A stretch of DNA of 64,000 nt, from contig JAGGAC010000014.1 of the NCBI GenBank assembly GCA_017889635.1, positions 1-64,000 of the forward strand. Direction: 5' to 3'. Made by a program: the position numbers and the translations under genes. This DNA comes from Bacillota bacterium. Lineage in GTDB: Bacteria; Bacillota; Negativicutes; Sporomusales; CTSoil-080. Positions 16,846 to 30,623 of the stretch are shown one piece after another (within the stretch, counting starts at the first letter, position 1; each line of letters begins with the position of its first letter). Under the pieces are notes generated by a model. The model had not been told where the DNA came from, ran no database searches, and worked only from the letters and a program-made list of their open reading frames with translations.

Positions 16846-18325
16846 TTAAAGTGGTATATTGCCGTGCTTTCTAGCGGGCCGACTTTCCCGTTTTGTGGCC
16901 AACATGTTGAGAGCCGTAATAATTCGCGGCCTGGTTTCGGCAGGTTCGATAACTTGGTCAACAAAACCACGCTCCGCCGCCTTATAAGGGGTGGCAAATT
17001 CCTCTACATACTTCATAGTCTTGGCCTTGGCCTCTGGGTCATCACGAAAAATGATATTTGCCGCTCCAGCAGGACCCATTACCGCAATCTCGGCTGACGG
17101 CCAGGCCATAACTTGATCAGCCCCCAAATCCTTAGAGCACATTGCCATATACGAACCGCCGTAAGCTTTGCGAGTAATTACTATGGCGTATAATACCGCC
17201 AGTTTCCTGCCCAGTTCCCGGCAGAAAGCCAGGTACATCGACCAGATTGACCAACGAAATGTTGAAAGCATCGCAGAACCTGATAAATCGGGCTGATTTA
17301 TCTGAAGCATTAATATCAAGACAACCCGCCATCACCATCGGCTGGTTCGCAATTACCCCCACCGTCCGACCACCAAACCGGGCAAAACCAGTAATAATAT
17401 TTTGAGCGTAGTAGATGTTAGCCTCATAGAATTCACCGTTATCAACAATGGTTTTGATAATATCTTTCATATTATACGGCTGGTTGGGATTATCAGGTAA
17501 AAAGCTGTCTAATGCTGCCTCAGTACGATTCGAATCATCGTCAGTACTTTTAAGCGGCAGTTCATCAAGATTGTTGCTTGGTAAGAAACTTAGAAGATAA
17601 CGCACCTGCTGCATACAGTCTTCATCAGTCTCAGCCGCAAAATGAGCCACACCGGAAATAGAATTATGAGTCATTGCTCCCCCCAATGCTTCAGCAGTAA
17701 CTTCTTCGGCCGTGACTGATTTTATTACCTGCGGGCCAGTTATGAACATTTGGCTAGTGTTTTTGACCATAAAGATGAAATCAGTCAGTGCAGGCGAATA
17801 TACCGCTCCACCCGCACACGGCCCCATAATTACCGAAATTTGCGGGACCACTCCGGATGACAAAGTATTACGATAAAATATCTTCCCATATCCGCCCAGC
17901 GCATCAACTGCTTCTTGAATCCTCGCTCCCCCTGAATCATTGAGACCAATAATTGGCGCACCCATTTTAAGAGCTAGGTCTTGCACCTTAACGATTTTAG
18001 CGGCATGCATTTCTCCGAGCGAACCGCCGATCACCGTAAAGTCCTGCGCATATACATATACAAGACGGCCATTCACCGTGCCGTAACCAGTTACAACGCC
18101 TTCCCCCGGCGCTTCAACCTTTTCCATCCCGAAATTAGTACACCGATGCTGGACAAATTGGTCAATTTCCACAAAGCTTCCATCATCCAGCAATTTATCT
18201 ATTCGCTCACGGGCAGTAAGCTTACCACTGGCATGCTGCTTATTGATACGCTTTTCTCCGCCGCCAAGCTTAACCTTGGCTTGCATTGCTTTTAGTTCCT
18301 GGATTTTTTCCTGAATGCTAGCCAT
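16846..18325 (-). pseudogene. mmdA: methylmalonyl-CoA decarboxylase alpha subunit (carboxyltransferase), interrupted by internal deletion and frameshift
   Basis: Two ORFs (17132..18373 and 16846..17319) together give the MmdA sequence; frame breaks after ETGGIIRH and resumes at [24 protein letters not shown]. Confidence 0.88.
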
Positions 18326-18369
18326 ATAGCACCTCCTAGCAACTGGCATTACGGACTTAAAAGTTAATA

Positions 18370-18777
18370 TCACTGGCGCTCAGATAACTCTAGCAGCACT
18401 CCCCCGCTGCTCTTAGGATGGATAAACGCGATCTTAGCGCCGCCAGCGCCGTAGCGCGGCACTTCGTCAATCAGACGTATCCCTTTAGCTTTTAAATCAG
18501 CCAATGCATTTTCAACATTGTCTACGCGAAGAGCCAAATGTTGGATTCCCTCACCATTCTTTTCGATAAACTTTGCCACCGGTCCATCCGGCGCGGTCGA
18601 TTCCAGAAGCTCAACCTCACTGTCGCCGCAAGGAATAAAGCACACTTTTACTTTTTGCTGCTCAACCAACTCTTCTCCAAACACCGTCAGTCCCAGTACT
18701 TCACTATAGAAATTCTTTGTCGCAGCCAAATTTTTCACTGCAACTCCGACATGATCAACTTTTAAAATCTTGAACAT
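18370..18777 (-). CDS. mce: methylmalonyl-CoA epimerase
   Basis: [51 protein letters not shown]. Confidence 0.93.
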
Positions 18778-18801
18778 ATTACCTTCTCCTCATTTTTTTG
18801 C

Positions 18802-19755
18802 CTACCGCAATATGTCGGCCAAAATATTATTGACAATGTTGTACGGCGTTTGCCGGTGACCTTCGATGCTATCCACCAACAAATCCAACTTTCCTGGAGC
18901 CATAACACTCTCCAGCACGTGCCTGCTGATCTGTTCATTAAGCAATAAGAGAAGTTCGTTCTTTGTCCGCGCACTGCGGTGCCGCACAAATTCGCCTGAA
19001 TTATAAAGATAACTTATATGATCGGCAATAGCTCCGATCAGAGCTTCCACCCCATCACCGCTATTGGCCACCGTTCTTTTTACCGGCGGCCTCCAGGCAA
19101 CCTTACTTGAATTCAAGTCCAACATCATTTCAAGCTCGGTTTCTAATCGTTCAGTGCCATCTCGATCAGCTTTGTTGATTACGAAAATATCGCCAATCTC
19201 AAGAATCCCGGCCTTAATTGCCTGAATGTCATCGCCAAGCCCTGGGACAAGCACCACCACCGTGGTATCTACGACTTTAATGACATCCACTTCAGACTGT
19301 CCTACCCCGACTGTTTCAACAAAAATAACGTCTTTACCGAAAGCATCCATGATCTTCACGACTTCCACCGTCTTCTTAGCCAGACCGCCCAAGCTCCCCC
19401 TTGTTCCCATGCTGCGAATAAAAACTCCTTGATCCAATGCCAACTCATTCATCCGAATCCGGTCACCTAAAATAGCTCCGCCGTAAAACGGACTGGTCGG
19501 GTCTATTGCTACGATGCCTACCGTCTTTCCCTTGCGTCGATATTCCTTGGTCATTTTATCAACAAGCGTACTTTTGCCAGCACCCGGCGGTCCAGTAATC
19601 CCAACCACATGTGCTTTGCCGGTATGAGGATATATCGCCTGCATCAGAGTAACTGCTTCGTCATATTCATTTTCCACCGCCGTAATAGCACGCGCTAGGG
19701 CAAGCCTCGAACCAGCCAATAATTCTTGGACAATATCCATTAGACTTTGCACCAC
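18802..19755 (-). CDS. meaB: methylmalonyl-CoA mutase-associated GTPase MeaB
   Basis: GITGPPGAGKSTLVD, DPTSPFYGGAILGDRIRM, SMGTRGSLGGLAKKT, VETVGVGQSEVD, NKADR. Confidence 0.96.
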   Translation of the reverse strand: MVQSLMDIVQELLAGSRLALARAITAVENEYDEAVTLMQAIYPHTGKAHVVGITGPPGAGKSTLVDKMTKEYRRKGKTVGIVAIDPTSPFYGGAILGDRIRMNELALDQGVFIRSMGTRGSLGGLAKKTVEVVKIMDAFGKDVIFVETVGVGQSEVDVIKVVDTTVVVLVPGLGDDIQAIKAGILEIGDIFVINKADRDGTERLETELEMMLDLNSSKVAWRPPVKRTVANSGDGVEALIGAIADHISYLYNSGEFVRHRSARTKNELLLLLNEQISRHVLESVMAPGKLDLLVDSIEGHRQTPYNIVNNILADILR

Positions 19756-19814
19756 CTCTAGAAACCCAATCTATAGCAGTAATACCTCTGATAGCTCCGT
19801 TCCCCAATAGCCGC

Positions 19815-20087
19815 TTATTTAATATTGGCCTTGATAAATTCAACAATGGATGCGGTCGAAGTCCCTGGAGTAAATATTTCAGCTACACCAGCCTGTTTTA
19901 GACCCGGGGCTACAACATTTACATCTTCCTCCAAGGCGGCTTCAGCGATTTGCTCCGGAGTCTGGCGCAATCCGGTGTAGATTACTTCGAATCCGGCATC
20001 GCGCAAGGCACGGGCCACTACTTTGGCACCACGATCATGGCCGTCGAGCCCAGGCTTAGCAACCAATACTCTTATCCGTCTTTGCAT
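19815..20087 (-). CDS. methylmalonyl-CoA mutase small/C-terminal B12-binding subunit, internally truncated
   Basis: [44 protein letters not shown] then [25 protein letters not shown]; the SxL and GG region is missing. Confidence 0.9.
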
Positions 20088-20111
20088 CCTCGTCCCTCCT
20101 CTTACCTTCGC

Positions 20112-21764
20112 TTACAGGCTGACATGGGCTTCATATTCGCCAAATACTCTGCGCAAAACACCGCAAATTTCTCCCAGCGTCCCATATACTTTGACCGCAT
20201 CAAGGATAAAGGGCAAGAGATTTATCTTTTCATCTTTAGCGGCCTTTTCCAATGCAACCAACTTTATCTGAAGTGCATTATTGTCTCGCTTCGCTCTAAG
20301 CTCCGCCAGTTTCTTTTTCTGCAATTCACCTACCGAAGCGTCTACCTGCAGTAGCCCTTCCAACGGCTTTTCCTCAATTTGAAACTGATTCACGCCGACA
20401 ATAACCCGGTTCTTTCTTTCCACTTCCATCTGCCACTTGTAGGCACTTTCTTGAATTTCCCTTTGAATATATCCTTTTTCAATAGCGACAACTGCACCGC
20501 CTATATCGTCAATCTTCTTTATGTAATCCCAACATTCTTGTTCAATTTTATTGGTTAGAGCCTCGATGTAATATGATCCGGCCAACGGATCAACTACATC
20601 GGCCAGGCCGCTTTCATATGCTACAATTTGCTGTGTCCGAAGCGCAGTCCGCACTGCATCCTCATTTGGCAGCGCCAGTGCTTCATCTTTAGAATTGGTA
20701 TGCAGCGACTGAGTTCCGCCAAGTACAGCCGCCGCAGTCTGAAGCGCGACACGCACAATGTTGTTCTCCGGCTGCTGAGCGGTAAGCATCGAACCAGCAG
20801 TTTGGGTATGAACCCGAAGCATCCATGATTTCGGATTAACAGCCCCAAAGCGTTCTTTCATAACCTTGGCCCAAACCCGGCGCGAAGCCCGAAACTTTGC
20901 CGCTTCTTCCAGTACATTGTTGTGAGCATTCCAAAAGAAGGATAGGCGGCCAGCAAAAGCATCGACATTTAAACCCGCCTTAATGGCGGCTTCAACATAA
21001 GCTATGCCGTCGGCAATGGTAAAGGCAATTTCCTGTACCGCCGTCGAGCCAGCTTCGCGGATATGGTAGCCGGAAATAGAGATAGTATTCCAATATGGAA
21101 CATTCTTTGAACAATACTCGAAGATATTGGTAATCAGCCGCATGGAGGGCTTTGGCGGAAAAATGTAGGTACCACGGGCAGCATATTCTTTCAAAATATC
21201 ATTTTGGATAGTCCCCTTAAGTTTATCAGCACTTACACCTTGCTTTTCCGCAACTGCAATATACATAGCCAACAACACCGCTGCCGGAGCATTGATGGTC
21301 ATCGATGTAGAAACTTTCCCCAAATCAATGCTGTCAAATAAAATTTCCATGTCAGCAAGCGAATCGATGGCCACCCCTACTTTACCAACCTCGCCGTCAG
21401 CAATGGGATCATCGGAATCATAGCCAATCTGCGTTGGCAAATCAAACGCACACGACAGGCCGGTCTGACCTTGGTCAAGAAGATATCGGTACCGATTGTT
21501 AGACTCTTCAGCCGTTGCAAACCCTGCGTACTGCCGCATAGTCCAAAATCGTCCGCGATACATAGTTGGCTGCACCCCACGAACATAAGGATAACTACCG
21601 GGAAATCCCAAATCGCGCACATAATCAAATCCTTCAAGATCCAACGGAGTATACACTCTTGGTTGAGCAAGATTCTGTCGTTCAGGATTTTTCGCTAACG
21701 ACTTTTCAGCTTTCATATTGTACTCGTCAAGCATATCCTTCAACGCTTCTTTAGCCATCATCAT
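20112..21764 (-). CDS. methylmalonyl-CoA mutase large subunit
   Basis: [73 protein letters not shown]. Confidence 0.97.
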
Positions 21765-21782
21765 AGCCTCCTTTACCTTGAT

Positions 21783-22127
21783 TTACGCTCCAATCTTAAC
21801 CGCCTTATCCTTTTCCATAACGTACCGGTTAAATATCTCTTTCATTGCTGTCATCAGTGCCCGTTTAGTTGATGTATGTACTCGCTCCTCAACCTCTTTA
21901 AGAATTTCATCTGCATTATTCAGCGATTTCCCTTTTATAATTTTGACAATAAATCCATTAGTCAGCTGACAATACATCGGCACCATACTATCAACGATTT
22001 CCCCTGTTTCCAGGTCAACCTCCATAACAAGAGTAATAAACTTATGGACTTCATAAATATCTGTGCCTTGTGGAACCTGAGCATGAGCTGCCAAAATATG
22101 GGTTTTACTCATCTTAATCCCTCCCAC
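21783..22127 (-). CDS. DUF3870-like protein (copy 1)
   Basis: ITLVMEVDLETGEIVDSMVPMYCQLTNGFIVKIIKGK..ERVHTSTKRALMTA; paralogous to 37812..38177. Confidence 0.75.
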   Translation of the reverse strand: MGGIKMSKTHILAAHAQVPQGTDIYEVHKFITLVMEVDLETGEIVDSMVPMYCQLTNGFIVKIIKGKSLNNADEILKEVEERVHTSTKRALMTAMKEIFNRYVMEKDKAVKIGA

Positions 22128-23355
22128 AAACCTCAGTAGCCATTTTTGTTGTCATTGTCCTGGGTTTATTTATATAAAAAGCTATAATACTACTAACTAA
22201 AGCAAGCACTGTAAGAAAGTAAAAACTACCTTCATAACTGCCGGTCATTGTTTTCACCCACCCGGTTAAGTATGGTCCAATCACCGAAGCTACCGCAATG
22301 CCTGTCGAAACCAGCCCAAAGTTAGCCCCAAAATGCTTTGTACCAAAGAATGCGCCAACTACTGCCGACACTTGAGGTATTGTACCTCCATAGCCAATAC
22401 CAATAAGAATCGCAGCAGCAATTAATCCACTCATCCCTAACACCGGCGGTAAAATTGCGAGCATAGCCATTCCTACAGCTGTAGTAATTGACGCTAGCAC
22501 CATCGCGAACTTTCTACCCATTTGATCAGCCAAATAACCAAATAGCACCCGGCCAAACGCGTTAAAAACTGCTAAAACCCCCATCGCAATTGCCGCCTGA
22601 TTAGCACTAATCCCCTGCTCTACCCCAAACGGTACAATATGCCCTAATGCAGTCTGCCCACCGGATACTACAAATAAATGCCATAACCATAGTCCCCAAA
22701 AAGCTGGCAGCACCAGTACATCCTTCCAGTTAAAATCTTTTTCAGCCTGAGCTGATGCTTTTGCTTCCGATAATTCGGCAGCTTCTTGCCACGCCAGTGG
22801 CGGATTACGTAATAGCTGCCCAGCAATAAGTATTACCGTCATACTTATTGCCGCCAGAATTCTGAATACAGCTCGCCAACTCATAAATTTGAAAAGCGGA
22901 GCAACCCAGATACCCAAAATCAAACTTCCTACACCAGTACCTACCATTAACAACCCTGTTACCAAACCACGTTTATCTGGAAACCACCGTACCACAGTAG
23001 CAATTGTACAATTATACAATACTCCAATTGCCAGACCACATAACAAGCTATAGGCAACATAAAGTTGAAAGAGGCTATTAATCCAAGAAGCAGACATTAA
23101 CCCCACGCCAAGTAAAATACCAGCAATTATCGAGACAGCTCGCGGCCCCTTATAGTCAATTAACGGCCCACCAAGCAATATCCCTCCTGCAAGAAAGATC
23201 ATCGCCAGGCTATAAACCAACGCAGTCTGATCCCGGCTCCATCCAAACTCCTGTTCTATTGGCAAAACAAACATTGACCAGGCGTCAAGAAACCCAACCA
23301 CAAGCATCATCACAAAGCCAATTACAACAAACCTCCATCGTCCACTAATATCCAT
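22114..23355 (-). CDS. MFS transporter, oxalate/formate antiporter (OFA)-like
   Basis: 12 TM pattern; RWFPDKRGLVTGLLMVGTGVGSL; FGRVLFGYLADQMGRK. Confidence 0.88.
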   Translation of the reverse strand: MDISGRWRFVVIGFVMMLVVGFLDAWSMFVLPIEQEFGWSRDQTALVYSLAMIFLAGGILLGGPLIDYKGPRAVSIIAGILLGVGLMSASWINSLFQLYVAYSLLCGLAIGVLYNCTIATVVRWFPDKRGLVTGLLMVGTGVGSLILGIWVAPLFKFMSWRAVFRILAAISMTVILIAGQLLRNPPLAWQEAAELSEAKASAQAEKDFNWKDVLVLPAFWGLWLWHLFVVSGGQTALGHIVPFGVEQGISANQAAIAMGVLAVFNAFGRVLFGYLADQMGRKFAMVLASITTAVGMAMLAILPPVLGMSGLIAAAILIGIGYGGTIPQVSAVVGAFFGTKHFGANFGLVSTGIAVASVIGPYLTGWVKTMTGSYEGSFYFLTVLALVSSIIAFYINKPRTMTTKMATEVCGRD

Positions 23356-23390: not shown

Positions 23391-24581
23391 TTAGACTAGC
23401 TCAATAATATCCGCAATCCCCATTCCTCCGGCAATGCAGAGAGTTGACACCCCATATTTTACCTTCCGTTTTCGCATTTCATAAATCAGGGTAGTCAAAA
23501 CCCGCGCCCCTGAGCAGCCTAGCGGATGACCAAGGGCAATTGCACCGCCATTCACATTAACAATGCTTTCATTTAAGTCCAAATCTTTAATTACAGCGAG
23601 ACTTTGCGCCGCAAACGCCTCGTTAAGTTCGATCAAACCTATATCACCTAAAGTTAGCCCCGCCAATTTAAGCGCTTTCCTTGTGGCAGGAGCTGGCCCG
23701 ATCCCCATGACTTCCGGCGATACACCAGCAACTGCATGGCTACGTAAAACTGCCAGCGGTTTTAGATTTCTCTTTTGAGCTTCCTTAGCAGACATAACAA
23801 CCAGACAAGCTGCTCCATCATTACGTCCTGACGAATTTCCGGCCGTAACGGTGCCCCCGGACTTAAAGACCGCTTTTAGCTTTGCCAACTGCTCCAATGT
23901 TGTTTTCCGTGGGAACTCGTCAATATCAAAAAGAACCGGATCACCCTTCTTCTGCCTAACGGCGACAGTCACGGTTTCTTCCCGAAACCGCCCTTCTGTT
24001 ATAGCCTGTGCTGCCTTATTCTGACTGCCAAGCGCAAAACTATCCTGCTCCTCACGACTAATACTGTAGCGCTCCGCCAAATTTTCTGCCGTCAAACCCA
24101 TCGTTAGTTCGCCATATGTTTCTATTGGTTGCGATCGTGGCTGACTTTCGGTATTAGAATCAACAAGAACGGCGTTACCGGCACCGTAGCCATAGCGAGC
24201 GCCTCTGAGATAGTAGGGAGCATTGCTCATACTCTCCGTACCGCCGGCAACAATTATGTCGGCTTGACCAGACATAATTGCCTGCGCCGCGTTATTAACA
24301 GCCTGTAGACCGCTACCACATTGACGCATCACAGTATAAGCCGGCACCGCTATAGGAATACCAGCCTTTAACGCAGCAACCCTGGCAATATTGGGCGAAT
24401 CCGCGCTTTGCTTGGTCTGACCTAAAATCACCTCGTCAATTCTTTCAGGTTCTATCCCAGCTCTTTTCACGGCTTCGCTAATAACTATTTGCGCCAATTC
24501 TTCAGGCGGAACGGTTTTAAGCGTTCCACCGATTCTGCCGATGGCAGTTCTAACAGCACTAACTATTACAACATCTTGCAT
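23391..24581 (-). CDS. acetyl-CoA C-acyltransferase (thiolase)
   Basis: VMRQCGSGLQAVNNAAQAI, GGTESMSNAPYYLR, NVNGGAIALGHPLGCSGARVLTTL, CIAGGMG. Confidence 0.96.
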   Translation of the reverse strand: MQDVVIVSAVRTAIGRIGGTLKTVPPEELAQIVISEAVKRAGIEPERIDEVILGQTKQSADSPNIARVAALKAGIPIAVPAYTVMRQCGSGLQAVNNAAQAIMSGQADIIVAGGTESMSNAPYYLRGARYGYGAGNAVLVDSNTESQPRSQPIETYGELTMGLTAENLAERYSISREEQDSFALGSQNKAAQAITEGRFREETVTVAVRQKKGDPVLFDIDEFPRKTTLEQLAKLKAVFKSGGTVTAGNSSGRNDGAACLVVMSAKEAQKRNLKPLAVLRSHAVAGVSPEVMGIGPAPATRKALKLAGLTLGDIGLIELNEAFAAQSLAVIKDLDLNESIVNVNGGAIALGHPLGCSGARVLTTLIYEMRKRKVKYGVSTLCIAGGMGIADIIELV

Positions 24582-24608: not shown

Positions 24609-25457
24609 TTATTTGGCTTTAAGGACAAGCTCACCCACATTTTGACTCGCATGAGTTCGCACGGTAAGCTCAATTGGATAATATCCCTCATATTCAGCCT
24701 TAATGGTATAATCAGTATTTCTGGCCAGGCCCTTGAATTCAAAATCACCAAAGAAATCCGTTTGTACCTCAATTACTTTGTCTTCTCCGTTAGCCTTCAG
24801 GGTAACCTTAGCCCCCTTTACGCAATCGCATTGCCTGTCAGACAAGATCACTTCTCCGGCAATAAAGGGCTTGGGAATACCAATATATTTTGTACTTGGC
24901 CTAGTACCTAACTCAGACTTGAAGCTCTTAACCTTATCAGCTTTTGCGACCAACAACTTAGAAATCTCGCTATCAGCATCGTCTAAATCACCAAATACCA
25001 ACGCGCCAGTAGGGCAACACTCCGCGCACCGAACTGTTTTTTCGCCATTGTCCAACATGTGAACGCACAAAGTACATTTTTGAGGTATACTCTTTTCCTC
25101 GTTCCAAAAAATCGCGCCATAGGGACAGGCATTTACGATATCCTTGCGGCCAATCGCTTTTTTCGGGTCGATAATAACAATTCCATCGCTGCGTCTATAA
25201 ACCGCATCTGCGTTGTTTGATGTAATACAATGCGGATTTACACAATGTTGGCACATCACAGGAATGTAATCCACCTTAATCTTCGTCCCTGTTCCATGTT
25301 CGACTTCCTTTAATTGTATCCACTTATGCCCCTCATTTGGCTGTGCAGCCGAAGTCGGATAGTAATCATTTCCGATATACTCATCCTTACAGGCAAGAAA
25401 GCAGGAATGACAGCCAGTACATTTTTCGACATCCACAACAATCCCATATCTAGCCAT
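24609..25457 (-). CDS. 4Fe-4S subunit of pyrogallol-phloroglucinol transhydroxylase-like enzyme, with C-terminal Cna/transthyretin-like domain
   Basis: CTGCHSCFLACKDEY, CQHCVNPHC, CTLCVHML..CAECCPTGAL; C-terminal GEVILSDRQCDCVKGAKVTLKANGE..TDFFGDFEFKGL. Confidence 0.82.
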   Translation of the reverse strand: MARYGIVVDVEKCTGCHSCFLACKDEYIGNDYYPTSAAQPNEGHKWIQLKEVEHGTGTKIKVDYIPVMCQHCVNPHCITSNNADAVYRRSDGIVIIDPKKAIGRKDIVNACPYGAIFWNEEKSIPQKCTLCVHMLDNGEKTVRCAECCPTGALVFGDLDDADSEISKLLVAKADKVKSFKSELGTRPSTKYIGIPKPFIAGEVILSDRQCDCVKGAKVTLKANGEDKVIEVQTDFFGDFEFKGLARNTDYTIKAEYEGYYPIELTVRTHASQNVGELVLKAK

Positions 25458-27987
25458 TTCTTAAATCCTCCCACTTTCGAAGCTCGCATAAGCATGAGTT
25501 AGGAGTCATACCTGCTGCGTGCTTTGATAATAGTTTCGATGCGGTCAGCAAATTAACACATCCTGCTTTGTCCGTCGACCCCGGCTGTCCAGGCACCAAA
25601 GGATCATATTTTGCCGAACAACCATAACTGTGCAATACACCTGCCGGCACTCGCTCGGTCACCTGGGCAATACAAAGCACCGAGCCCCGGTCGTTGTAAA
25701 GCTCCACAATATCTCCGTCAATAACGTTCCGCGCCTTGGCGTCCACCGGATTAATCCGCACAGGCCACCAATAATAACCTTCCTTTTCCACCCTATGCAA
25801 AGCTATCTCGTTGAGCCAGGGAGTATGGTTATCATAATGAGTATGGAAGGAAAATCTTGGATGAGGCATAATTATCTGCAGCTGGTATTTGTCATGAGCT
25901 TCACTGAAATACCCTTCCCAGGAGGGAATAAAGTGCGGCACAATAGGCCGCTCCATATCATCAGGCATATTCTGGCGCAGGCTTTCGGCGGCAAATTCAA
26001 TTTTTCCTGAATAAGTTCCTAGTTCTTTCGCTTTTTCAGTACCCCGTTTGGAATTGCCGGTATCAGGAGTGTCGCACTCCCGGCCTTCGGCGTACCAGCG
26101 CATACCCGGCGTGGATTCATACTTATCAGGAACTGGTATAATATAGTAGCCCCGTTTGTCAAACTCTTCCCAAGAAATATCTTTAGCAATATCAGAAGAC
26201 TCAAAAAACAGTCGTGCCCAATCGTCTTCGTTATTGCCCTCAGTGTAAAGTTCCTTCATTCCTAGCCGATCTGCCAACAGCGTGAAAATTTCGTAGTCGG
26301 CTTTGGATTCGCCCAGTGGCTCAATACATTTTTGCTCTCGGACAATAACCCGGTAGTTATTTCCAATATGCGCATTTGTTGTATATCCACCGCACGCCGC
26401 CCATTCTCCAAGGTCGTTGCGTTCAAGATTAGTACATGCCGGCAGAATAATATCAGCAAATTTTGCTTCACTCCCATACCAGCAGTCCTGATTAACCACA
26501 AATTCCAATTTGTCACTCTGATACATTTTTACCCATTTATTGGTATCAGACATTGTACCCATAAATGAACCGCCGTACCGATAAAACATTTTCACCGTCG
26601 AATGACCTTCCATAGGATATACATTATGAATAAATTGCTGATCAAGGGTTTGACCGCAAAAACCGTCGCCCCAGAAATCCTCCTTGCCAGTCATAATAGC
26701 TTCAGGCAAGGTCAGACGGAACAGCCGCTGTTTTGTTTTGTTTTGCAACGACAGCTTGATTTTAGCAATATTAGATTTGCCCATCTGGCCCCGTGGTTCA
26801 GCGTAACCAGGGAACCAAGTATTAGAATCCGCTGGCGCCCCCATTGTAGTGCCCCAAATTGAAACCCCAGGCTTGCCCAATCCCTGCATTGCCTGCAAAA
26901 GCACCATCATCCGCGCCCATTCGGTGCCATACGCCGTGCGGCATGCGCTTCCCTGGCCTCCTCGGCAGCCGCTGCTCAGACACGTTCTTTTAGCGGCCCA
27001 TTCCCTGGCAAGCGCTCTGATTTTACGTGCCGGAATGCCCGATTCTGCTTCAGCCCATTCCGGCGTCTTGACAAAACCGTTATCGCTTTCTCCAAGAATG
27101 TATTGCCTAAACTCCTCAAAACCAATAGTTTTTTCCGCAACATATTCCTTATCATAAAGATCCTCAGTTATCCACACATAAGCAATTGCCATCGCAAGCG
27201 CTGTATCGGAACCCGGGCGCGGCGGCAGCCATGTTCCGTCCATTGCGGCGGCAGTATAATTGTAAAACGGATCAATAAAAACCGTCTTTATTCCTTTTTC
27301 CTTGAGCCATACCCGCCAAATAGCCGATTCCTGTCCACTGTATGTACCACGGGTAGTATCTGGATCATTAGACCAAAAAACAATCATTTCGGTATTCTTC
27401 AAAGCATCTTCCAAGAGGTCAAACTGTTCTGGCATTCCCAGACGCCACTGGAAACCATAAGTATGAGTAGCACCCCAGTGCCATCCTTCCCAACTATCCG
27501 GATTATCAAGAATCGGTGTATAGTTGAGCATATTCATAAACCGAGAAAACGGACCCATCTTATACCCGACAATCCCCCAGTTATGATGAGACGAAGTCAT
27601 CCCGGTAATGGAGGAACCGCCATAGGCGTCAGTCAATCTTTTGATTTCACCGGAAACAATATTCAGAGCCTCATCCCAGCTGATCCGTACATAATCGGAT
27701 TTACCGCGATTTTGGGGGTTGCGCTCGCCATTCGGGTCAAAGTCCACCCGTTTGAGCGGATATAAAATACGATTATGTGGCTCAAACCGGTTTCTTTCCG
27801 CATGACCCGGCGGCGCCAAGCGAAAAGCCTTAGGTGGTGAATATCTTTTGCCGCCAGCTTCAATAACCCAGGGCTTCAATTCTTCTTCCGGCACTTGCAA
27901 CGGCCGAATACGGACGATTTTACCATCCTTAACATAAACCGAAATAGGACCTCCATTGGTCATATTCGTAAATACCTGTTCTGCCAT
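25450..27987 (-). CDS. molybdopterin large subunit, pyrogallol-phloroglucinol transhydroxylase-like
   Basis: TGMTSSHHNWGIVGYKMG, PILDNPDSWEGWHWGATHTYGFQWRLGMPEQFDLLEDALKN, DPDTTRGTYSGQESAIWRVWLKE; layout matches the Pelobacter transhydroxylase from memory; start taken at MAEQVF. Confidence 0.8.
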   Translation of the reverse strand: MAEQVFTNMTNGGPISVYVKDGKIVRIRPLQVPEEELKPWVIEAGGKRYSPPKAFRLAPPGHAERNRFEPHNRILYPLKRVDFDPNGERNPQNRGKSDYVRISWDEALNIVSGEIKRLTDAYGGSSITGMTSSHHNWGIVGYKMGPFSRFMNMLNYTPILDNPDSWEGWHWGATHTYGFQWRLGMPEQFDLLEDALKNTEMIVFWSNDPDTTRGTYSGQESAIWRVWLKEKGIKTVFIDPFYNYTAAAMDGTWLPPRPGSDTALAMAIAYVWITEDLYDKEYVAEKTIGFEEFRQYILGESDNGFVKTPEWAEAESGIPARKIRALAREWAAKRTCLSSGCRGGQGSACRTAYGTEWARMMVLLQAMQGLGKPGVSIWGTTMGAPADSNTWFPGYAEPRGQMGKSNIAKIKLSLQNKTKQRLFRLTLPEAIMTGKEDFWGDGFCGQTLDQQFIHNVYPMEGHSTVKMFYRYGGSFMGTMSDTNKWVKMYQSDKLEFVVNQDCWYGSEAKFADIILPACTNLERNDLGEWAACGGYTTNAHIGNNYRVIVREQKCIEPLGESKADYEIFTLLADRLGMKELYTEGNNEDDWARLFFESSDIAKDISWEEFDKRGYYIIPVPDKYESTPGMRWYAEGRECDTPDTGNSKRGTEKAKELGTYSGKIEFAAESLRQNMPDDMERPIVPHFIPSWEGYFSEAHDKYQLQIIMPHPRFSFHTHYDNHTPWLNEIALHRVEKEGYYWWPVRINPVDAKARNVIDGDIVELYNDRGSVLCIAQVTERVPAGVLHSYGCSAKYDPLVPGQPGSTDKAGCVNLLTASKLLSKHAAGMTPNSCLCELRKWEDLRNG

Positions 27988-28051
27988 CTCGAACATTGCC
28001 TCCTTTACTTTGCTATAGCCACATACAAATACTTTCAAAAAGCACAGCCAG

Positions 28052-28381
28052 CTATTTCGGCGCAAACAACACAGTCTTTGGCTTATTCTCCATTTCCTTG
28101 ACCAGCTCGGTCAGTTCCCCATATTTCATGCAATCTGCCTGGCAATGCTTTACACAAGAGGGACGCTCACCATTTACCGTTCGATTGGCACATAAGTTAC
28201 ATAGCTCCGTAGGAAAGGGGAGATAATTAATTTCCACTTTATCTAAGGACTCGAGAACTATTTCGTTTACCTTGATGCCCCACAGTCCAGCGGGGTAACT
28301 ATTTTCTTGCTTACAAGCCACCTCGCAAGTGTGACACCCGGTGCAAAATTCATAGTCAATGAATAAACCTTTTCTTCCCAT
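28052..28381 (-). CDS. short 4Fe-4S electron-transfer subunit of a Mo oxidoreductase
   Basis: CTGCHTCEVACKQEN and CNLC..CVKHCQADCMKYG. Confidence 0.85.
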   Translation of the reverse strand: MGRKGLFIDYEFCTGCHTCEVACKQENSYPAGLWGIKVNEIVLESLDKVEINYLPFPTELCNLCANRTVNGERPSCVKHCQADCMKYGELTELVKEMENKPKTVLFAPK

Positions 28382-28382
28382 C

Positions 28383-30623
28383 CTACTCCACCGCCCCGTT
28401 TGCCTTTTTGACCCTTACCAGCGCAGTCTTATAAGCCCCGCCACCATAACCTGATTTCGCTCCAGGTCCAATATGAACCAGCTTGTTACAGTTAATATCC
28501 CAAATACCAAATAAATTCGGCTCACAGCCGTCTTCCTCCGGCAGCCACCATCCGTGCGGCACACTAATCACTTTCGGATGAACAATCGGCGTAACTTTCG
28601 CCTTACGTTTGATAGAGCCGCGGTCATTTTCGATAACCACCCATTCACCGTCATCAATCCCGACTTGTTCGGCAACGCTCGGATGGATCTCTACAATCGG
28701 ATAAGGATCACATTCCCTAAGCCAGGGAATCATTCGATGTTCCGAGTGAAAGTAAACGGATGACCGCCGACCAGTAACCATAACCAAGGGATACTTCTTA
28801 TAGACTTCTGGCGTCCGCACCTCACTTTCCGGCGGTTCAGAATAATACGGCAGAGAATCAAGTCCCCATTCCTCATAGCTCTTACTTGCAAACTCCACCT
28901 TACCAGTCGGAGTTCGAAACCCTGGCTTGCCGTCCGGTCTTAAAAGCCCCTTCTCATAACGGCGGTATGGCCTTGACGCCGAGTTTTCCGGCGGCATAAT
29001 CCACCCCCCCTGCGCCTTGAGTTCGTCATAGGTCAATCCGCAGGGTTTTAGTCGATCATTAATCAGATCTTTAACTGACCCATAACGTTTCGCAAGCTCA
29101 GGGTTAAACCTCTTCGCCAATTCCAAATTAATTTCCCAGTCGGAGCGACATTCGCCAACCTCTACCGCCGGAACAATAACCTGCAATGGAACCCACCATG
29201 ACCTAAAGCTTTCCTTTTCAGCAATTGAAGCTACCGGCAAAACAATATCGGCTACCGCCATGGTCGTAGGATTATGGAATAGATCAGCAACAACAACGAA
29301 CTCCATCTTCTTTAACGCTTCATAGTGAAGCGCAGTATCAGCAGCCTGCCCACCCAAAACATTGCTTGTTTGAATCCAGCAAGCCTTAATCGGATATGGA
29401 TCGCCGGTCAACATTTGTTTGACCGCCAAATCCGGCTGGGCCCAGCCCCGAAAATTTCGCACCATAGCAAATTCTTTCGCGCCAATTCGTTTCTCGTTTA
29501 GACGCCTTACAAATTCCTCACCGTATAGTTCATGCATTTCCTGGGTAGAAAATGGATAGGTCGTAACACCATAGGCAGGTCTGGCAATAACATTGCCACC
29601 AGGAACATCTAGGTTCCCTGTCAGACACCAAAGATGCGCAATAGCCTGCGCGACAGTCGAACCTTCCGGGCACTTGTCAATCGGTACACCCCACTGGATA
29701 GCCGCAGGCTTGGCCGAAGCGTATAACCTTGCCGCCGCAATAATATCCGCTTCAGGTATCCAGGTTATCGCTGCTACTTTCTGTGGAGGATATTCGGCAG
29801 CACGTCGTTTCAAATCATCAAAGCCTTCAGTCCAATTTTTCACAAACTCCTGATCATATAAATCCTCAGAAATTATTACATTGATCATTCCCATCGCCAA
29901 AGCCCCATCAGTTCCCGGCCTAATTTGTAAAAATTTTTCTGACCGCGAAGCAAACCAAGTCCAGCGTGGATCAACAACAATCAGCTTAGAACCCCGTTTC
30001 ATACAGTCAACTATCCAATGACCGAAAAATCCGTCTGGACACCCCGGCATCGGATTTTGCCCCCAAATAATAATCACCTTAGGAACCTCGTACTCTGGAT
30101 CGGCATAGCGTTTTTCTGAAAACTGCCCGGCGTCAAGCACTGCATAATCACCGTGGGTAGCCATCATTGCCCCCAGCCGAGGTGTGTAACAAGAATGCCC
30201 CGCCAGCCCGAGCTGAATCCAGTTAGGGCTACCATAGGAATAAGCCAGAAAAGATATCGGTCCGCCGATATCCCGCCCTGTCCCCTGGCAGAACAACACC
30301 GATTCCGGTCCATATTCTGCTTTAATATTGCTGAATTTTTCCTCAACAGTATCCAGAGCCTCATCCCAAGTAATACGTTCGAACTTCCCTTCGCCCCGCG
30401 CTCCCACTCTTTTTAGGGGATACGTTATCCGATCAGGGTGATACATATATTGCGTTAATGCCAACAGCCTTGGACAAGCTCTACCTTGACTAAAAGGATG
30501 ATTTTCATCACCTTCCACCTTGACAACCTTTCCATTCTTAATATAGAGCTTAACGCCACATCCCCCGTGACATCCCGGACCAGGTGACCAAGCCGTAGTT
30601 GTTACAACATTGTCGTAGCCCAT
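28383..30623 (-). CDS. molybdopterin-dependent oxidoreductase, DMSO reductase superfamily
   Basis: GCHGGCGVKLYIKNGKVVKVEGDENHPFSQGRACPR; GHSCYTPR; RPGTDGALAMGMINVI; C-terminal molybdopterin dinucleotide-binding region. Confidence 0.93.
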   Translation of the reverse strand: MGYDNVVTTTAWSPGPGCHGGCGVKLYIKNGKVVKVEGDENHPFSQGRACPRLLALTQYMYHPDRITYPLKRVGARGEGKFERITWDEALDTVEEKFSNIKAEYGPESVLFCQGTGRDIGGPISFLAYSYGSPNWIQLGLAGHSCYTPRLGAMMATHGDYAVLDAGQFSEKRYADPEYEVPKVIIIWGQNPMPGCPDGFFGHWIVDCMKRGSKLIVVDPRWTWFASRSEKFLQIRPGTDGALAMGMINVIISEDLYDQEFVKNWTEGFDDLKRRAAEYPPQKVAAITWIPEADIIAAARLYASAKPAAIQWGVPIDKCPEGSTVAQAIAHLWCLTGNLDVPGGNVIARPAYGVTTYPFSTQEMHELYGEEFVRRLNEKRIGAKEFAMVRNFRGWAQPDLAVKQMLTGDPYPIKACWIQTSNVLGGQAADTALHYEALKKMEFVVVADLFHNPTTMAVADIVLPVASIAEKESFRSWWVPLQVIVPAVEVGECRSDWEINLELAKRFNPELAKRYGSVKDLINDRLKPCGLTYDELKAQGGWIMPPENSASRPYRRYEKGLLRPDGKPGFRTPTGKVEFASKSYEEWGLDSLPYYSEPPESEVRTPEVYKKYPLVMVTGRRSSVYFHSEHRMIPWLRECDPYPIVEIHPSVAEQVGIDDGEWVVIENDRGSIKRKAKVTPIVHPKVISVPHGWWLPEEDGCEPNLFGIWDINCNKLVHIGPGAKSGYGGGAYKTALVRVKKANGAVE

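Follow-up and report, generated by a model that had tools for sequence, protein, structure and literature searches.

Gene content of the locus

The subject of this study is a 64,000-nucleotide stretch of contig JAGGAC010000014.1 (the window) from a Bacillota bacterium of the family CTSoil-080 (assembly GCA_017889635.1), in which the genes of two distinct molybdopterin enzymes are neighbors. Eight genes, all on the minus strand, follow one another in the order: a 3-hydroxyacyl-CoA-dehydrogenase-family enzyme resembling triacetate-forming dehydrogenase (TfD; 30687–31646); a molybdopterin enzyme of apparent acetylene-hydratase/catechol-dehydroxylase type, here called Mo2 (28383–30623); its 109-aa ferredoxin-like electron-transfer partner, Fd, with nine cysteines in two groups (28052–28381); the large catalytic subunit of a transhydroxylase-family (PgtL/BthL-like) bis-molybdopterin guanine dinucleotide enzyme that has no N-terminal Fe-S cluster (25450–27987); its BthS-like small Fe-S subunit (24609–25457); an acetyl-CoA C-acyltransferase (thiolase) scoring above the TIGR01930 cut-off (23391–24581); an MFS transporter (22114–23355); and a DUF3870 protein of unknown role (21783–22127). 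The intergenic gaps in that order are 63, 1, 61, −8, 27, 35 and −14 bp, with the Mo2 and Fd genes 1 bp apart and the large- and small-subunit genes overlapping by 8 bp, and we read the eight genes as one predicted transcription unit. Promoter and terminator scans gave sites no more numerous than in shuffled sequences. A preliminary description of this DNA had placed the two enzymes back-to-back; the four open reading frames that it listed are present, as are the motifs SHHNW and NPDSWEGWHWG of the large subunit, but the genes are arranged in tandem on one strand.

The same description had likened the first enzyme to pyrogallol-phloroglucinol transhydroxylase. The large subunit scores 55 bits for PF21423, the AhtL-like first domain (cut-off 27), and also matches PF00384 and PF01568. 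Its best PDB sequence is the pyrogallol hydroxytransferase of Pelobacter acidigallici (BthL, 4v4c; 878 bits, 48% identity), which is the single solved transhydroxylase found in the PDB search; the next family, DMSO reductase, reaches only 257 bits. The suggested comparison of structures bears this out, because an AlphaFold2 model built with 30 sequences (mean pLDDT 85.0, pTM 0.88) superimposes on 4v4c with a TM-score of 0.95, compared with 0.80 for the next best structure. In the alignment, H134, D164, S165 and Y395 correspond to BthL H144, D174, S175 and Y404, with Ser165 as the molybdenum ligand; we take the catalytic roles of these BthL residues to be those of the 2004 structure. Because the catalytic set is conserved, the sequence argues that the enzyme would still act on a polyhydroxybenzene hydroxyl at the molybdenum. 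The small subunit aligns with BthS (4v4c chain B) over residues 1–263 at 200 bits, and its C-terminal extra beta domain, previously described as Cna-like, matches PF13620 (CarboxypepD_reg-type) above cut-off. NCBIfam offered no equivalog for either molybdenum enzyme of the window.

Mo2 is a protein of 746 aa whose N-terminus, MGYDNVVTTTAWSPGPGCHGG, is without a Tat motif. Its best solved relative by sequence is the acetylene hydratase of Pelobacter acetylenicus (2e7z, 317 bits), which is also the closest fold to its model (TM-score 0.79; mean pLDDT 74.5, 10 sequences). As anticipated, the Cys of GHSCYTPR (Cys145) aligns with the metal-ligand Cys of acetylene hydratase, and it is invariant in 19 relatives. 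Invariant in the same relatives is His19, which takes the position of the catalytic Asp13 of acetylene hydratase. In the N-terminal cluster motif, Gly15 takes the place of the first Cys, while C18, C22 and C50 are kept; that first Cys is absent across the Mo2 group in the alignment and present in three acetylene-hydratase/thiosulfate-reductase-like rows. The missing Asp13 and first cluster Cys rule out an acetylene hydratase, and Mo2 further differs from that enzyme in having an Fe-S partner subunit.

Acetylene hydratase is also the published nearest relative of the catechol dehydroxylases (PMC7028382). In their Gordonibacter type, the catalytic subunit is located in the cytoplasm (its length is 770 aa in Gp Hcdh) and has one small Fe-S partner, and the Fe-S motif known from the Eggerthella type is lacking (PMC11585353, PMC11887054, PMC11574389). 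Compared by description, Mo2 and Fd appear to fit this layout: they share with the Gordonibacter-type enzymes (Dodh, Gp Hcdh and Eadh, of ~750–770 aa) the size, the cytoplasmic location, the one small 4Fe-4S partner, a nearby MFS gene and acetylene hydratase as the nearest characterized fold. The N-terminal cluster motif, reported as absent in those enzymes, is incomplete in Mo2, with one of its four Cys lost. A difference is the setting of Mo2, which is a catabolic cluster of the phloroglucinol type beside a transhydroxylase-family enzyme.

Clade placement and recurrence of the pair

The window's genome encodes three further members of the transhydroxylase family, on contigs C112, C94 and C73. 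In a family tree of 107 members (a quick IQ-TREE run rooted at the midpoint, with SH-aLRT as the sole support), the window enzyme and the C73 protein belong to a group of 66 sequences that we call clade III (SH-aLRT 99), whereas 4v4c and the proteins of C112 and C94 belong to clade II (27 sequences, SH-aLRT 98); a third group of 14 sequences is more distant. The C112 protein is 84.5% identical to 4v4c, compared with 48% for the window's large subunit. From the sequences, then, the window enzyme is not the ortholog of BthL, and clade III is the sister of the clade of the characterized transhydroxylase. The earlier resemblance holds for the superfamily and for the complete His/Asp/Tyr/Ser set, and it fails for the clade, outside which the large subunit falls.

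Within clade III the His, Asp and Ser are present in 66/66 sequences and the Tyr in 63/66. Three other positions differ from BthL: Leu351 is replaced by Arg in 54/66, Trp354 by Glu or Gln in 49/66, and Arg153 by Lys in 50/66, and the window enzyme carries all three changes (R342, Q345 and K143). Trp354 and Arg153 presumably line the substrate pocket of BthL, which we use as a lead only. Judged from these substitutions, an altered substrate of the clade-III enzyme is plausible. It is unlikely that the window enzyme is the genome's main pyrogallol transhydroxylase, given the BthL ortholog on C112.

Two observations concern the paralogs. The clade-III member on C73 (locus L018) has a counterpart on contig C106 (L078) of the close relative CTSoil_081; both are 54–55% identical to the window enzyme, have their own small subunit, and adjoin genes for DUF3870, a cyclase-family protein, phosphate butyryltransferase, butyrate kinase and a thiolase that shares 73% identity with that of the window, so that these loci probably encode a parallel ring-cleavage pathway. 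The enzymes of C94 (L010) and C112 (L011) lie near genes for candidate UbiD-type decarboxylases, as would be expected for conversion of gallate to pyrogallol, and a UbiX-type-looking gene is also on C94.

Among genomes that share the operon, the closest to the window's are two metagenome-assembled genomes (MAGs) of its own family, CTSoil_081 (G001) and CTSoil_082 (G002). Both come from anoxic wetland soil to which condensed tannin had been added, and the metaproteomes contained enzymes of flavonoid degradation as well as phloroglucinol reductase (PGR) (PMC8084988). A catechin microcosm study of 2025 reports that PGR and pgthAB (pyrogallol transhydroxylase) were expressed, along with broad CDH expression, in MAGs that include a genus of CTSoil-080 (PMC12203004). 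Polyphenol degradation by this group is thus already known; in the passages of the two papers that were consulted, neither the separate clade nor the association of its members with a catechol-dehydroxylase-like enzyme is mentioned.

The gene order of the window's operon is the same in CTSoil_081 and is kept in CTSoil_082 (C43; L077/L106), where a contig ends at the interrupted Mo2 gene. The synteny table, built with tblastn, also extends to other lineages. Another family is represented by a Sporomusa-like genome (G025), on whose contig C134 the pair is 82% and 86% identical to that of the window, with an SDR (PGR-like) gene directly upstream, and its neighbors are genes for a TfD-like dehydrogenase, a TRAP transporter, a thiolase, an MFS transporter (in the same position as in the window in CTSoil_081, CTSoil_082 and G025), a CoA-transferase, a BKACE protein resembling triacetate lyase (TAL) and two cyclase-family proteins. 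This cluster appears to hold candidates for every enzyme of the phloroglucinol pathway characterized in C. scatologenes, namely PGR, dihydrophloroglucinol cyclohydrolase (DPGC), TfD and TAL (PMC10470551); the PGR, DPGC and TAL candidates are assigned by family and neighborhood only. Complete candidate clusters with Mo2 and clade III are likewise found in Moorella sulfitireducens SLA38 (L148, the same contig as G364:C35) and in a third Bacillota genome (G169:C45), whose ferredoxin and BthLS genes are surrounded by two copies of Mo2. A Desulfatiglandales MAG (L116) contains both cyclases and Mo2 adjoining clade III, and a betaproteobacterial MAG (L137) has the arrangement Mo2-Mo2-Fd-large-small.

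The pathway candidates of the window's genome are split over contigs C70, C125 and C123, with those for the remaining steps on the last two: compared with G025, the SDR and BKACE proteins of C125 are 81% and 79% identical, and the cyclases of C123 are 85% and 90% identical. Within the operon, the dehydrogenase at 30687–31646 has Met61 in place of Lys56 of the 3-hydroxybutyryl-CoA dehydrogenase 6aa8 and no Asn in the 221 region, and its catalytic His, Ser and Asn are all kept. TfD is described as keeping the catalytic residues with the CoA-binding Lys56 and Asn221 absent (PMC10470551), a pattern that the dehydrogenase sequence matches. The proposal that the locus serves the catabolism of hydroxylated benzenes is supported by other lineages, in which the pair lies in the same clusters as phloroglucinol-pathway genes.

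A scan of named genomes yielded 62 clade-III loci, an opportunistic sample of often short contigs with shared ancestry, so that the figures are counts rather than a statistical test. One or more of the four pathway genes occur at 23/62 loci, three or four at 8/62, and a second molybdenum enzyme is nearby at 21/62, this being Mo2, a distant third-group member or a transhydroxylase-clade member. Third-group members (32–39% identity, without the Tyr404 position) stand beside clade III at 13 loci in several phyla (L118–L122, L128, L132, L141, L146, L155, L160, L177 and L182). None of the loci read has both Mo2 and a third-group member, which may be an alternative partner of clade III. Plasmid searches for named relatives returned only homologs of 44–47% (rhizobia, Burkholderiales and similar), uninformative for the pair; some lie in surroundings like those of aromatic degradation, with genes for acyl-CoA synthetase, FAH hydrolase and VOC proteins.

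Methylmalonyl-CoA mutase genes begin 18 bp beyond the DUF3870 gene, and genes for MeaB, an epimerase and a decarboxylase follow with small gaps. The genes for mutase, MeaB, epimerase, carboxyltransferase and DUF3870 have the same order in the window (17132–22127) and in M. sulfitireducens (L189, 2–5421), for no obvious metabolic reason. In the window, the B12-binding mutase subunit (19815–20087) is without 40 internal residues, including the SLLSGAH...GGG segment, that are found in CTSoil_081 and Moorella; either the gene has decayed or the assembly collapsed here. Compared with its 509-aa ortholog in CTSoil_081, the gene for methylmalonyl-CoA decarboxylase alpha/propionyl-CoA carboxylase beta (16846–18373) is split between two frames, and ~17 residues are missing at the break. 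DUF3870, a recurrent neighbor of such clusters, also occurs at window positions 37812–38177, at L018 (5832–6152) and in the G025 cluster; it adjoins aromatic clusters as well as methylmalonyl-CoA mutase.

Possible roles of the two enzymes

The window enzyme does not look like a mere duplicate of BthL, because a true BthL is present in the genome, the loop around Trp354 is altered and a second molybdenum enzyme recurs beside it. These properties, together with the chemistry of catechol dehydroxylases, suggest a hydroxylating or transferring enzyme paired with a dehydroxylating one that would deliver phloroglucinol. The locus would then be a hydroxyl-rearranging module converting pyrogallol-type polyhydroxybenzenes to phloroglucinol, in which the first enzyme transfers or adds a ring hydroxyl and Mo2 removes one. 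It would channel plant-derived polyphenol rings into the established route of phloroglucinol degradation. We give this reading about an even chance of being correct.

For the mechanism, we infer the substrates and products, the direction of electron flow, a division of labor between the two enzymes and their sequential action as follows. The clade-III enzyme would bind a polyhydroxybenzene at its Ser-ligated molybdenum and move or install a ring hydroxyl, for example in forming 1,2,3,5-tetrahydroxybenzene from pyrogallol; the hydroxyl could come by transfer, or from water with electrons leaving through the Fe-S subunit. Mo2 with Fd would act as a cytoplasmic reductase of the catechol-dehydroxylase type, taking off a hydroxyl flanked by hydroxyls with electrons from the small ferredoxin. 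Phloroglucinol would then pass to the PGR and triacetate lyase candidates of C125, the cyclase/cyclohydrolase candidates of C123, and the operon's dehydrogenase and thiolase, yielding acyl-CoAs. Catechol dehydroxylases are reported to remove the hydroxyl para to a substituent, and that regiochemistry would give phloroglucinol from 1,2,3,5-tetrahydroxybenzene and resorcinol from hydroxyhydroquinone. Of the two activities suggested earlier for Mo2, dehydroxylation is the likelier and hydroxylation the less likely in view of its Gordonibacter-type layout; nothing supports a cofactor-linked substrate, which had also been suggested.

Several points weigh against a hydroxyl-rearranging module. The assignment of Mo2 as a catechol dehydroxylase is based on layout, not on a tree. 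With a near-identical BthL in the genome, pyrogallol need not be the substrate of the clade-III enzyme. The PGR, DPGC and TAL candidates are not in the window's operon, being on other contigs of the 152-contig assembly, and 39/62 clade-III loci have none of the four pathway genes nearby, which is partly due to short contigs. Finally, a search of 399 actinobacterial-class genomes, aimed at Gordonibacter-like sequences, yielded no identifiable Gordonibacter and four genomes with Mo2 orthologs (74–77%), near which the contigs read, several of them short, have no clade-III gene.

A simpler scenario is that clade III is another redox-neutral pyrogallol-phloroglucinol transhydroxylase acting via 1,2,3,5-tetrahydroxybenzene, that Mo2 is an independent catechol dehydroxylase for which flavonoid B-ring catechols are electron acceptors, and that the two are neighbors only through shared polyphenol breakdown. 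This would be in keeping with the full conservation of the active-site set and small subunit, with the close fold match to 4v4c, with the expression of PGR, pgthAB and, broadly, CDH in catechin-degrading MAGs (PMC12203004), and with the Mo2 paralogs that occur by themselves, with Fd partners of their own, at other sites in the window's genome and its relatives, often near large transcriptional-activator-like genes. It fits poorly with the two transhydroxylase-clade enzymes already encoded on C112 (the closer BthL ortholog) and C94, with the differences of clade III at BthL positions 351, 354 and 153, and with the occurrence of Mo2 orthologs specifically beside clade III in several lineages, and we consider it possible but somewhat doubtful.

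Unlikely, in our estimate, is that the pair belongs to an oxidative hydroxyhydroquinone pathway like that of nitrate reducers, in which an RhLS-like resorcinol hydroxylase would precede a catechol-dehydroxylase homolog with hydroxyhydroquinone as its substrate. RhL and PgtL are both Ser-ligated hydroxylating members of the family (PMC10100899), a catechol-dehydroxylase homolog is present in the Thauera 3,5-dihydroxybenzoate operon, where its loss impairs growth (PMC7028382), and the betaproteobacterial arrangement would suit such a pathway; however, the neighbors in the Bacillota clusters are candidates for the reductive PGR, TfD, TAL and cyclase steps, with no hydroxybenzoquinone ring-fission system. 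More improbable still is a different ring substrate, such as an alkylated one, with carbon leaving as propionyl-CoA. That would account for the downstream methylmalonyl-CoA mutase genes, which are beside the cluster in Moorella too, but G025 and G169 are without such neighbors in the stretches read, and the deletion in the window's B12 subunit and the carboxyltransferase frameshift imply that the adjacency may be incidental.

Returning to the hydroxyl-rearranging module, a more specific version, which we regard as rather doubtful, is that transhydroxylation is split between the two enzymes. Clade III would oxidatively hydroxylate a trihydroxybenzene (electrons out) and Mo2 would reductively remove a different hydroxyl (electrons in), with the Fe-S subunits linking the two reactions. 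This is consistent with the reported dehydroxylase regiochemistry, because the 2-hydroxyl of 1,2,3,5-tetrahydroxybenzene is para to OH-5 and ortho to another hydroxyl. An implication, if it is true, is that pyrogallol or hydroxyhydroquinone could be converted to phloroglucinol without a free pool of tetrahydroxybenzene cosubstrate, and the locus would supply genes for the hydroxyhydroquinone-to-phloroglucinol conversion. A 1992 study of Pelobacter massiliensis reportedly found that hydroxyhydroquinone is converted to phloroglucinol by several transhydroxylations.

Known systems and implications

The first enzyme shares with BthLS (PgtLS, AthLS) of P. acidigallici the two-subunit composition, the Ser-ligated molybdenum, the His/Asp/Tyr set, the small subunit with its beta domain, and the fold; it differs in its 48% identity, its sister clade, the changes L351R, W354Q/E and R153K typical of that clade, and a co-operonic second molybdenum enzyme. 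The resorcinol hydroxylase RhLS of Azoarcus/Thauera, compared by description, belongs to the same Ser-ligated PgtL/RhL group, hydroxylates a polyhydroxybenzene and functions in a pathway with a catechol-dehydroxylase homolog; a difference is that this pathway is oxidative. The C. scatologenes phloroglucinol cluster has counterparts in the window's TfD-like dehydrogenase and thiolase and in the PGR, DPGC and TAL candidates elsewhere in the genome, which are co-clustered in G025, Moorella and G169. As described, that cluster is without molybdenum enzymes, whereas the window's operon has them and is without a PGR, DPGC or TAL candidate.

Finally, we note the setting in which these enzymes would matter. 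The amount of phenolic carbon retained in peat and the fate of polyphenols in the rumen and gut depend on the anaerobic breakdown of tannins and flavonoids, and homologs of the enzymes concerned tend to carry the plain annotation 'pyrogallol transhydroxylase'. A large sister clade is now separated from that of the characterized transhydroxylase; it extends from Desulfobacterota to rumen Lachnospiraceae, is often accompanied by a second molybdenum enzyme, and in several lineages lies inside phloroglucinol-pathway clusters. We propose that a catechol-dehydroxylase-like enzyme is a specific partner of clade III.

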